Positions 2-4,073 of a stretch of DNA of 7,194 nt are shown piece after piece (positions within the stretch are counted from its first letter, which is position 1; each line of letters begins with the position of its first letter). The notes under the pieces were generated by a model. That model worked only from the letters and a program-made list of their open reading frames with translations. It did not search any database and was not told where the DNA came from. Origin of the DNA: Candidatus Aegiribacteria sp. (GTDB taxonomy: Bacteria; Fermentibacterota; Fermentibacteria; Fermentibacterales; JCC-6); NCBI GenBank assembly GCA_030600975.1, contig JAUVUL010000084.1, positions 1 through 7,194 of the forward strand. The letters run 5' to 3'. The position numbers and the translations under genes are program-made.

Positions 2-277
2 TCAACGACAGGATCTCTGGAAACATATACCACCGAGACAAATGCCAACGGTTTATTCTGGATGGAGATGCAGTTCTATCCGGATATTGCAGAGGGCGGC
101 ACCGGCGGATCTTCGGGAAGCATAACCTTCGGACTTCGTGCCTTTGATAATGCTGGACATGAGTACTTCTACGGTGGAAATGAAGAGTATACGTTCACCG
201 TCTTCGGCGGTGATACACTAACAGTGTACAGCATCAATGTGGTAATGATCGCATCATCCAAAGCCGGCGGCAGGTAA
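2..277 (+). CDS. 3' end of unidentified beta-rich protein upstream of pilO (5' truncated)
   Basis: The frame is open from the left edge of the window to a TAA at 275-277, giving 91 C-terminal residues. The start lies outside the window. The visible part alternates hydrophobic and polar residues typical of beta strands (LFWMEMQFYPD, SITFGLRAFD, EYTFTVFGGDTLTVYSI). It also has Gly/Ser-rich turns and a short polar tail ending in KAGGR. In the usual pilM-N-O-P-Q order this place belongs to pilN. However, I see none of the alternating strand-helix pattern (a strand, a helix with FxxxL, then strands) expected of the ferredoxin-like C-terminus of PilN. It could be a divergent or extended PilN, or an extra pilus-associated periplasmic protein inserted before pilO. 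Position suggests a link to pilus assembly; no function is assigned. Confidence 0.7.
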   Translation, partial: STTGSLETYTTETNANGLFWMEMQFYPDIAEGGTGGSSGSITFGLRAFDNAGHEYFYGGNEEYTFTVFGGDTLTVYSINVVMIASSKAGGR

Positions 278-909: not shown

Positions 910-2322
910 ATGAGTATCTCAAAACTAACTTATACAGCCCTTCTGGCAGCAGCTGTTGTATTTCTGGTTTCCGGCTGCGGTGAGAGTACGGATGAAGCAA
1001 CTACAACGGTTGAGGATACAGGGATATCCATAACTGTGGTATCCGGCTCCGATGTTTACGGCTGGATAGAAATGACCCTTTCGCAGACTCCTCCCATAAT
1101 GGCCGAAGCAGGAGAAGATCATGCGTGGCTGCTTTTCGAAGGGGGCACCCTCCTCAGATTCAGCAGAATGGATGGAAAATGGAAAGCTTACTGCCTGGAG
1201 GATGTTAGCATTATTCTTGACTTCGACCTGAATGGTGAGATCCCTTCATTCATTACGGAGAGCGAATACCTTGTATTCAACGATAACAGCTGCGATGCTG
1301 TTTCAGAATCACTTCCGGATGGTTTCTCCCCGATGGAGCTTGAGATTTGTAATGATGATATAGCAGTTCTGGGTATGGATGGAGATCTGGCGATCAGGGA
1401 GGAAGATGGTTTTACTGTGTATACCGCTTCCGAAGAACTGAATCCCCGGGGCGACCTTCAGCGGATTGGACCGGACTGGATATTCAGTCTTGAGGGCGGC
1501 GGCATTGCACTGTTCGACCCCTCGGTTGCCCTGTGGCAGTTCGAGGACTCACCCGATGGAGATATACTGGCTTCGTCCGACAATATCCTGTTCATTGGCT
1601 TCAACGACACCATCTATGTAAGAACCTTACCGGGGGAATGGAATTATCATTCTGACGGCCGTCTGTTTGATGGAGGTCTTGTTCTGGCAGAGAACGGTAT
1701 CTCAACAGTCATGTCACCGGGTGAGATAATCGCTGAAGCTCCTTCGTTCGAACCATCTAAATTGTTTGCAATGGAGAGTTTCCGGCAGCCTGTATGGGCT
1801 ATTGACGATCTTGGAATAGCGGCCTACACTGGTCTGGGTTCAGTAGAAACAAACCTCCCTTATTACGAAACCCAGCGCGTATCCTGTTCCATGGCCGGGC
1901 AGAGCGCAAGTGGAATGCAGGGCTCAGCAGAGTCTGTGAACGATATAATACAGGCAGGTGGCGCTACATTCAGAATATATGAGTCCGTTTCCATCAGACC
2001 CGACCCGTTCACCGAATTCTCAGCTGAGGGAAGAGATGCGAGAAGGACCCTTGAGACAATATCGGTCGAGGAATTCAGATTGGTTGGAATAACACTTGAT
2101 CCTGTCGGTGGCGATCAGGCCATGGTGGAAGACGGAATTGGTGTACCATACATCCTCTACGAAGGGACGATTCTTGCCAATAATTCCCACGTTGCTGAGA
2201 TTACTAGTAATGAAGTTATTGTGATTCAGGATGTTATAGTTGATTACAGCGCAAGAGGTGGAGGGGAGACTACAATCCCCACCATTTATTCTTTGCGTTT
2301 ACATGAAGAAGGTGGTTTGTGA
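910..2322 (+). CDS. pilP: PilP-like type IV pilus lipoprotein with large N-terminal propeller-like region
   Basis: The gene lies between pilO and pilQ, the normal place of pilP. PilP is a lipoprotein that connects PilN/PilO to the N0 region of PilQ. Residues 1-23 form a lipoprotein signal peptide with lipobox VSGC; Cys23 would be lipidated. Residues about 355-468 match the PilP C-terminal beta-sandwich: RPDPF at 363-367 (family RDPF), EEFRLVGITLD at 387-397, AMVED at 404-408, PYILYEG at 413-419, then HVAEITSNEVIVIQDVIVDY. The protein is 470 residues, against about 175 for ordinary PilP. Residues about 45-315 hold roughly seven strand-turn-strand units of about 37 residues, with Trp and Gly-rich turns (WLLFEGGTLLRF, WIFSLEGGGIALF, ILFIGFNDTIYV, VWAIDDLGIAAY), which I read as a beta-propeller. 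A Ser/Gly/Gln-rich linker at about 325-350 joins the two parts. The propeller reading is inference; the PilP domain call is firm. Confidence 0.82.
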   Translation: MSISKLTYTALLAAAVVFLVSGCGESTDEATTTVEDTGISITVVSGSDVYGWIEMTLSQTPPIMAEAGEDHAWLLFEGGTLLRFSRMDGKWKAYCLEDVSIILDFDLNGEIPSFITESEYLVFNDNSCDAVSESLPDGFSPMELEICNDDIAVLGMDGDLAIREEDGFTVYTASEELNPRGDLQRIGPDWIFSLEGGGIALFDPSVALWQFEDSPDGDILASSDNILFIGFNDTIYVRTLPGEWNYHSDGRLFDGGLVLAENGISTVMSPGEIIAEAPSFEPSKLFAMESFRQPVWAIDDLGIAAYTGLGSVETNLPYYETQRVSCSMAGQSASGMQGSAESVNDIIQAGGATFRIYESVSIRPDPFTEFSAEGRDARRTLETISVEEFRLVGITLDPVGGDQAMVEDGIGVPYILYEGTILANNSHVAEITSNEVIVIQDVIVDYSARGGGETTIPTIYSLRLHEEGGL

Positions 2323-2324
2323 TG
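2309..2324 (+). promoter_or_regulatory. pilQ ribosome-binding site and TGATG start junction
   Basis: AAGGTGG at 2309-2315 lies six bases before ATG 2322-2324, which shares its A with the pilP TGA at 2320-2322. A GTG at 2319 is in frame one codon earlier but only three bases from the ribosome site, so ATG 2322 is preferred. The overlap implies translational coupling of pilP and pilQ. Confidence 0.6.
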
Positions 2325-4073
2325 CGTCTCTTAACCGTTTGTAGTCTACTGCTGTTGCTGGCTATACCAGCGGCAGCGTACAGGATTACCGATATCTCGG
2401 TAGTACCCAGCGGGGACGTGACCCTGGTTACTCTAACCGCTGACGATGCAATTTCGTACGAAAGGTTTCTTCTGACCGATCCTATGAGGATCGTTCTGGA
2501 CATTGGCGATGCGGTGCACTCGCTGCCATCGATGGATTTTTCCGTCAACAGGGGAGGGGTTCTGTCCATAAGGACGAGTCAGTATAAAGCTCCGCCGGAC
2601 GGCATTGTCAGAATAATCATCGATGTTAACGGTGAGCTTATCAACTACAACGCATCACTTGACGGGAATCGACTCGTTCTGGAGATGCAGACTGATCCTA
2701 CCGGCATACCCTTTGCTGCATGGTCAGCAACTTCTGAATATGTTGAGCCTGTAATAACCGGCGGAGATGTAGCGCCACTATCATCACCTGACTACTCGAC
2801 CCTTTCCGGACAATCAATAGCAACATCAACAAGGGGTATCCGTATAAGTGAGATCAATCGCCAGATAGAGGACGGCTTTCCGGTGGAGTGGGCCGGAACC
2901 GGTGGCAGAAGGGTAACTATCGATGTTGTTGATGCAAGCATTAGAACCGTTATGAGGGCTATCGCTGATGTGAGCGGCATGAACATCATGCTCCCTGAGG
3001 ATTATACCGCCTCGGTTACCGCCCGGTTACAGAATGTGGGCTGGAGGGACGCACTGACAGCGATTCTCAACTCACAGGGACTTGTTGCAAGCATGCAGGG
3101 CAATGTCCTGAGAGTGCTGCCCAGGGATGAGTTCTATTCGGAGATAAGCCAGATGGCATCAACCCGTCATGACAGAGAGAACCTTCAGGAACTCCAGACC
3201 GAGATATACGTGATCAGATATGCGACAGCACAAAGCCTGAACGGCGCTCTCAGTACCGCTCTTTCCGATAGAGGTCAGATCTCGATTGACGACAGGACCA
3301 ACTCTCTCATCATCACGGATATACCGTACAAACTCGAGGAAGTAGGCAGACTGCTGCCTATTCTGGACAGTCCGACAGCGCAGGTAATGATAGAAGCGAA
3401 ACTGGTGGAAATCGATGCCAGCTATGCACACGAGATGGGTATTGACTGGTCCCTGGGGAACCTTACCAGGTCAAACGATCTGGTGCATGGAGGTATGAGT
3501 TCCGGTGGTCTTGCCGTAGGAGATCCGACTGGCACTATCTCATTCGGCACCATTACCAGTATGTTCAATGTGAACGCAGTTCTTACTATGCTTGAATCCC
3601 AGAATCATGCACATATACTGTCGGAGCCGAGGATAGCGATAATTGACAACATGACCGGTACAGTTATGTCCGGAAAGGAAATACCTCTGACTCTTATGGA
3701 TCCAAGCGGAAACGTTTACATACAGATGTATAAGGTCGGTGTAGAGCTGACCGTTACACCTCATATCAATGCTGATAACAACGTTACTCTTGAGCTCAAT
3801 CCGGTTGTAAGTGAGCTTTCTGGTGAGGCAACTTCCTCGCAGCAACCCATAATCCTTACGCAGAGCGCAAATACAACCCTTATGATAGACGATGGTGCAA
3901 CAGCGGTTATCGGTGGAATAATGAGAAGCAAGCATACAACTGTCAGAAAATCCATACCGATACTTGGGCAGATCCCTCTACTCGGTGATCTGCTTTTCTC
4001 CTACAATTCCGAGCGAGAAGAAAGCACAGAGCTTGTAATATTCGTTACTCCACACATTATCAGGCCTTACTAA
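2322..4073 (+). CDS. pilQ: Type IV pilus secretin PilQ
   Basis: PilQ forms the multimeric outer-membrane channel through which the pilus fibre leaves the cell. From ATG 2322 the product has 583 residues. A signal peptide ends at about residue 19 (IPAAA before YRITD). One AMIN domain covers about 20-124 and would bind peptidoglycan; it includes RIVLDIGD. A polar linker of about 65 residues follows. The STN/N0 domain covers about 196-268 (VTIDVVDASIRTVMRAIADV, then GWRDALTAIL and LRVLPRDEF), and one secretin N1 repeat covers about 293-350 (YVIRYATAQSL, DDRTNSLIITD). The secretin core runs from about 350 to the end, with QVMIEAKLVEID, ILSEPRIAIIDN, GVELTVTPHI and the hallmark VIGGIMRSKHTTVRKSIPIL followed by GQIPLLGDLLF. 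It ends in ELVIFVTPHII. At 583 residues it is shorter than the roughly 700-residue pseudomonad PilQ, with one AMIN domain only. It is the last pilus gene of the cluster. Confidence 0.95.
   Translation: MRLLTVCSLLLLLAIPAAAYRITDISVVPSGDVTLVTLTADDAISYERFLLTDPMRIVLDIGDAVHSLPSMDFSVNRGGVLSIRTSQYKAPPDGIVRIIIDVNGELINYNASLDGNRLVLEMQTDPTGIPFAAWSATSEYVEPVITGGDVAPLSSPDYSTLSGQSIATSTRGIRISEINRQIEDGFPVEWAGTGGRRVTIDVVDASIRTVMRAIADVSGMNIMLPEDYTASVTARLQNVGWRDALTAILNSQGLVASMQGNVLRVLPRDEFYSEISQMASTRHDRENLQELQTEIYVIRYATAQSLNGALSTALSDRGQISIDDRTNSLIITDIPYKLEEVGRLLPILDSPTAQVMIEAKLVEIDASYAHEMGIDWSLGNLTRSNDLVHGGMSSGGLAVGDPTGTISFGTITSMFNVNAVLTMLESQNHAHILSEPRIAIIDNMTGTVMSGKEIPLTLMDPSGNVYIQMYKVGVELTVTPHINADNNVTLELNPVVSELSGEATSSQQPIILTQSANTTLMIDDGATAVIGGIMRSKHTTVRKSIPILGQIPLLGDLLFSYNSEREESTELVIFVTPHIIRPY

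Follow-up and report, generated by a model that had tools for sequence, protein, structure and literature searches.

What does the gene between pilO and pilQ encode in Candidatus Aegiribacteria, and what might the large region between its lipid anchor and its C-terminal domain contribute to a type IV pilus? The question was raised by a contig of 7,194 bases (the whole stretch analysed, here called the window) from a 2.17 Mb genome that is 61% complete. A sequence-only reading had described the product of positions 910 to 2322 as a PilP with a lipobox cysteine at residue 23, a clear C-terminal PilP domain and, between them, seven repeated units whose period suited a seven-bladed beta-propeller. 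Structure prediction and fold comparison of both halves support this reading, and the architecture, a predicted propeller joined to a PilP domain, is in our judgement nearly certain. The gene is divided as follows, with residue numbers referring to its product.

910 to 2322, forward strand: PilP-type lipoprotein with predicted propeller, 470 amino acids, ATG start
910 to 978, forward strand: lipoprotein signal peptide and lipobox (V-S-G-C23 in the translation, read by eye)
979 to 1050, forward strand: variable tether, residues 24–47, mostly predicted at low confidence
1051 to 1845, forward strand: predicted seven-bladed beta-propeller, residues 48–312
1057 to 1077, forward strand: strand 50–56 by structure prediction, G51 and W52 invariant
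1099 to 1197, forward strand: blade 1, residues 64–96, from predicted strands, as for all blades
1219 to 1311, forward strand: blade 2, residues 104–134
1330 to 1422, forward strand: blade 3, residues 141–171
1444 to 1545, forward strand: blade 4, residues 179–212
1564 to 1656, forward strand: blade 5, residues 219–249
1660 to 1734, forward strand: blade 6, residues about 251–275, the least regular
1759 to 1833, forward strand: blade 7, residues 284–308
1846 to 1965, forward strand: linker, residues 313–352, low confidence from about 318, with a conserved A-G-Q
1966 to 2019, forward strand: near-invariant F-R-I-Y-E-S-V-S-x-R-P-D-P-F, residues 353–370, the D-P-F part being common to PilP-type proteins of other phyla
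2050 to 2304, forward strand: PilP/GspC homology-region beta-sandwich, residues 381–465, by structure match and hhalign (97.4%)

The open reading frame, which starts 17 bases after the end of pilO and overlaps pilQ by 4 bases, is a real gene, with 91 aligned relatives of 457–486 residues at 32–90% identity. These were drawn from protein searches in which the 7998 candidates with most shared words were scored and the best 120 of 130 matches kept; a further search scored 298 and kept the best 120 of 129. The main alignment of 92 sequences, the window protein included, was hand-picked from 120 listed for length and spread, and two smaller alignments joined the window protein to 32 of 38 named loci and to 28, respectively. 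Where the source records name these proteins, they are called hypothetical. Among named relatives Candidatus Aegiribacteria comes closest, at 90% identity, and NCBI assigns it to the FCB group; the phylum label Candidatus Fermentibacterota was taken for the whole set from the related genus Sabulitectum. A position directly between pilO and pilQ, as expected of a PilP gene, was found in the window and across the 38 loci, with pilO upstream in 34, pilQ downstream in 36 and every miss at a contig end. The lipoprotein signal expected of PilP is also present, Cys23 being invariant in all 92 aligned sequences.

The region between anchor and PilP domain was predicted to fold as a propeller. Its predicted strands (50–56, 64–67, 71–76, 80–85, 90–96, 104–108, 111–115, 119–124, 129–134, 141–147, 150–155, 160–164, 167–171, 179–186, 189–194, 199–203, 208–212, 219–223, 226–231, 234–240, 243–249, 251–253, 257–260, 263–266, 284–288, 292–298 and 303–308) were grouped by us into seven blades, each of three or four strands, with blade 6 poorly filled; from the strand order, strand 50–56 probably closes the ring as part of blade 7. 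The seven repeats of the sequence-only reading, starting near residues 73, 121, 151, 190, 226, 257 and 295, each begin inside a strand of a different blade. Since strands make up about 58% of the region, falling within a strand means little by itself, and the one-per-blade order is the strong part of this agreement. When the family profile was matched against itself over residues 61–312, the best offset was 39 (mean column score −0.002), followed by 38 (−0.177), against a background of −0.446 (standard deviation 0.143) for offsets 20–59. The blade-to-blade profile score was 15.4, compared with 8.9 ± 0.4 in 60 within-blade shuffles, a lenient control since shuffling also destroys the strand alternation. 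Foldseek matched the model to propellers; the top-ranked rows are a mixture of unrelated ones, and the matches include the periplasmic sensor propellers 4a2l and 3ott. The propeller fold is firm in the predicted model, and the count of seven is read from strand order alone.

Against the PDB the propeller profile found weak and mixed matches, the best being the PorZ entry 5m11 (E 0.018). Named propeller families matched weakly, in a few of 29 members (PQQ_2, best E 5.4e-4; EML_2, 0.0013); PQQ_2 was found in 5 of the 92 relatives (best E 0.0028) and 3 of the 29 propellers, and NCBIfam BamB in 1 of 29 (E 0.019). A recent source within the genome was not found, no paralogue there going beyond weak matches (best E 0.002).

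The C-terminal half was recognised by structure. Folded alone, the predicted domain had solved PilP structures as its first matches; GspC homology regions were also among the matches, with the listed PilP chains above the GspC chains or tied. In hhalign the domain matched, at 97.4%, five PilP-type sequences of other phyla excised by their D/N-P-F motif, two of them scoring over the Pfam cut-off. PDB searches with the single sequence and with the full-length profile were uninformative, and it was searching the halves apart that gave resolution. By sequence profile the window protein taken alone has no PilP match in Pfam at E ≤ 5. PF04351 is nevertheless matched by more relatives than any other family, though by under half, with E ≤ 1 in 40 of 92 and a best E of 5.6e-4. 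A PF04351 search of its own genome and 14 control genomes also found nothing; the model is too insensitive for that absence to have meaning. Of the stretches compared, residues 353–380 are the best conserved, with a mean top-residue frequency of 0.84, against 0.79 for residues 381–465 and 0.44 for residues 47–312; the invariant R-P-D-P-F lies in a segment predicted at low confidence (326–375).

The sequence-only reading had asked how widespread such a fusion is. It is phylum-wide: the whole propeller and PilP domain stand in one open frame in 37 of 42 phylum genomes, and the PilP half is found in 41, including all 24 genomes with at least 90% completeness and at most 5% contamination. Each has one PilP-half match, save G008 (4% contamination), where there are extra partial copies at contig ends. 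The exceptions to the single frame are genes cut at contig ends (G014, G031), in pieces on two contigs (G033) or frame-broken (G035), and a genome, G027, for which loss of the gene was considered and rejected, since its pilQ contig begins within pilQ. In G035, which by coordinates is locus L066, propeller and pilQ each lie in two frames and pilM and pilN are apparently separate; the breaks are probably assembly errors, and this genome was left out of the propeller alignment and the identity comparison below. Among 18 distant genomes one (G050) gave a weak C-terminal match (E 1e-5), with a different N-terminal half. No relative among the matches listed could be placed outside the phylum, few of them carrying an organism name. 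In literature on PilP, propellers, Fermentibacter pili and Aegiribacteria no description of the fusion was found, as judged from listings.

The propeller diverges fast at a near-constant length. Mean identity was compared for ten parts of three proteins, begun from 37 of the 38 named loci and keeping the window and the 24 loci in which each of the three proteins reached at least 90% length; the propeller was lowest at 0.37, followed by the PilP linker (0.46), the PilQ linker (0.56) and PilO (0.65), with the rest at 0.75–0.78. In the main alignment 81 of 92 propellers are limited to eight lengths in the range 258–268. The domain is highly acidic, with a median isoelectric point of 4.05 and a median charge of −33 (from −46 to −10), and its conserved residues are few, mainly Gly, Trp, Leu and Pro. 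Few conserved residues and fast divergence argue against a conserved catalytic or sensing site. Steady length with diverging sequence suggests that the fold matters more than the surface, fitting a structural collar.

How such a collar could work is suggested by known PilP, an inner-membrane lipoprotein in the sections of PMC3724824 and PMC4471445 that deal with it. Its unstructured N-terminus holds PilN/PilO and its C-terminal domain holds the secretin, according to parts of PMC5805733, PMC4471445 and PMC3724824. By analogy, the lipid anchor of the window protein may lie in the inner membrane. With that anchor and a tether of only about 24 residues, the propeller, on the membrane side of the R-P-D-P-F segment, would sit near the membrane, level with the PilN/PilO stalks. 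The near-invariant motif just before the beta-sandwich is a natural candidate for the PilN/PilO contact, so that the R-P-D-P-F segment may bind PilN/PilO as the unstructured N-terminus does elsewhere, and residues 381–465 would bind the PilQ N0 ring. Were each secretin subunit to have one PilP, about a dozen propellers would be packed into a ring under the secretin and might keep the PilN/PilO cage in place. This explanation taken as a whole seems to us reasonably probable; the collar role itself is held more tentatively, its chances being somewhat short of even.

Several observations weigh against parts of this explanation. Glycine follows Cys23 in 78 of 92 sequences and aspartate in only 2, and under the enterobacterial sorting rule such a residue favours the outer membrane over the inner. 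Eight-bladed designs appear in the Foldseek list (6y7o, rank 6), so fold matches leave the blade number unfixed. The linker is disordered and the predicted template modelling score (pTM) is 0.59, so the relative placement of the two halves is not fixed by the model. No relative seen scores above the Pfam PilP cut-off (best bit score given, 18.1 against 25.6), PF04351 was found at the right place in 1 of 33 phylum genomes (G020, 17.9 bits), and a PDB profile search puts two phosphomannose isomerases slightly ahead of PilP (0.13–0.14). Alignment error in so divergent a propeller may inflate its divergence, and that divergence would be fitted nearly as well by a docking platform with a changing partner as by a collar.

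The remaining genes of the operon bear on the alternatives. Those assigned by profile or position in the window are listed here.

2 to 277, forward strand: 3' end of a small lipoprotein gene between pilM-pilN and pilO, its start lost at the contig end
335 to 892, forward strand: pilO (PF04350, E 4.1e-12, 46.9 bits against a cut-off of 22)
2319 to 4073, forward strand: pilQ secretin with AMIN, N0 and N1 (TIGR02515, 297.8 bits, cut-off 284.35; PF11741, PF07660, PF03958 and PF00263 over cut-off)

Downstream of pilQ the window holds genes for a methyltransferase of the Cons_hypoth95 family, for a product with a CoaD-like start, for an aminotransferase-like protein (labelled by eye) and for a zinc-ribbon protein; the opposite strand has part of a SIS-domain gene, ended by the contig end. 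In relatives the small lipoprotein has 138–164 residues, and the copy at L031:4947-5363 has no Pfam match. A scan of 34 loci parsed it in 30 (not found in 3, misparsed in L068), the residue after the cysteine being Asn (15 loci), Asp (14) or Ser (1); by the enterobacterial rule at least the Asp forms would be kept in the inner membrane. Further upstream, PilM is extended by about 250 residues, probably PilN, in one open reading frame of 577–631 residues (L031, L048, L051, L056, L058). In the one tested (L031:3055-4950) PilM was recognised by PF11104 over residues 39–377, and the PilN part was not recognised by Pfam. This arrangement resembles GspL of type II secretion.

The sequence-only reading had offered a spacer, a docking site or a sensor as roles for the extra domain. 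A role as spacer across an exceptionally wide periplasm, as proposed for Thermus PilW, is a weak candidate, the propeller being compact and PilO, at 185 amino acids, not long. Propellers are common interaction platforms, and the domain could recruit a lineage-specific partner (an envelope protein, pilin or glycan) rather than adding bulk only. The fastest divergence of the ten parts is what a surface tracking a changing partner would give, and a small lipoprotein gene lies two genes upstream, parsed in 30 of the 34 loci scanned; against this, the alignment shows no conspicuous candidates for a binding surface or pocket, no partner was identified, and the acidity disfavours simple electrostatic binding to an anionic wall or DNA. 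We regard docking as rather unlikely, and a sensor or ligand-binding domain regulating pilus dynamics as far less likely again. The latter takes its appeal from the sensor propellers among the fold matches, which come from so mixed a set that they are uninformative on a ligand, and the absence of candidate pocket residues counts against it too.

An outer-membrane lipid anchor, with the propeller beside the secretin and stabilising PilQ as BamB stands beside BamA or as a pilotin does, would account for the glycine after Cys23 and for its difference from the Asn or Asp of the same-operon lipoprotein, as if the two were differently sorted; the weak PQQ_2 and BamB matches in a few relatives also suit it. 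This is improbable, since the sorting rule is not established for Fermentibacterota and the known PilP described in those parts of PMC3724824 and PMC4471445 are inner-membrane lipoproteins. Least probable of all, by our estimate, is that the operon encodes a type II secretion-like machine with this protein as its GspC analogue rather than a pilus PilP. PilO does score as T2SSM_b (E 2.2e-5, 24.8 bits, cut-off 21.7) and weakly as GspM (28.6 bits against 60), PilM and the likely PilN share a frame as in GspL, and GspC homology regions occur among the structure matches. However, PilO scores higher as PilO, the secretin passes the PilQ model and fails GspD (205 against 351.35), PilT-type ATPases over cut-off are found in 39 of 42 phylum genomes, and PilP chains are listed above the GspC chains or tied with them. 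A propeller collar on a pilus PilP is our preferred explanation.

Compared with PilP of Pseudomonas, Neisseria and Myxococcus (PF04351; 2lc4, 2y4x, 2ivw, 3jc8), the window protein differs in its predicted propeller of about 265 residues between anchor and arm, and in family scores that, where seen, fall below the Pfam cut-off. Thermus PilW, as portrayed in the portion of PMC13039148 that concerns it, likewise lies between pilO and pilQ, exceeds PilP in length, ends in a GspC homology-region-like domain and links PilQ to PilN/PilO. Its extra length is described as a flexible stretch, rich in Gly and Pro, that would suit a wide periplasm (same portion of PMC13039148), whereas that of the window protein is a compact predicted propeller. 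GspB/OutB shares a homology-region domain binding the secretin N0 and an extra envelope-anchoring part, but it is a transmembrane protein whose extra part is a C-terminal peptidoglycan-binding extension (excerpts of PMC9239104); the window protein is a lipoprotein with an N-terminal propeller. PilY1 (PF05567) also brings a seven-bladed propeller to type IV pili, but it belongs to the tip complex and has a calcium site (extracts of PMC13190605). An origin of the propeller from PilY1 was not supported by profile, PF05567 being absent from the 24 families matched by the 29 propellers in a search where HMMER filters remove most matches above about E 0.1.

Another phylum provides proteins in the PilP position (L069:4250-6226, L072:79-1806, L073:238-1839) with a PilP-type C-terminus and a large N-terminal extension, here an AMIN or AMIN-like domain and a long low-complexity linker; no lipobox was seen in them. 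AMIN passed the Pfam cut-off in L072 (E 3.1e-4) and L073 (E 8.4e-6). Pfam found none in L069, whose N-terminus matched the AMIN of the window PilQ by blastp (E 0.001 over 42 residues), and the three N-termini together matched it in hhalign at 97.1%. The PilQ beside the L069 copy, by eye, starts at N0 without AMIN, and in that phylum the domain has apparently been transferred from PilQ to PilP. The stretch before the D-P-F motif thus appears to accept different domains among phyla. A further protein, L082:1009-1869 (G049), has a PilP domain over the Pfam cut-off and an N-terminal stretch that looks by eye like a pseudopilin head, for which there was no Pfam support.

As for the pili themselves, the Aegiribacteria genome paper has a single mention of pili genes in the portion consulted (PMC4846661). 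PilY1 was found by PF05567 in 1 of 42 phylum genomes (G001) and in none of 14 control genomes; most of the phylum may have pili that lack the usual tip protein, or a tip protein that has diverged beyond the reach of this model. In G005 (98% complete) the propeller-PilP is present, a PilT-type ATPase over cut-off is absent and there are two weaker PilB-like matches, reflecting perhaps a pilus without a retraction motor, or a gap.

PilP, which links the secretin to the inner-membrane platform, is generally portrayed as a small domain with a floppy arm. Retention of a lipid-anchored propeller at this joint by a whole phylum shows that a body of this size can be added to the alignment complex, and a pilus survey relying on the Pfam PilP model would score most of that phylum as lacking PilP. 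More doubtfully than the collar role, the N-terminal half of PilP may be an evolutionary plug-in slot, filled by a propeller in Fermentibacterota and by AMIN in another phylum, with a dozen-fold propeller ring as a new layer of the alignment complex. The propeller-PilP is a natural test of how the arm of PilP positions the machine.
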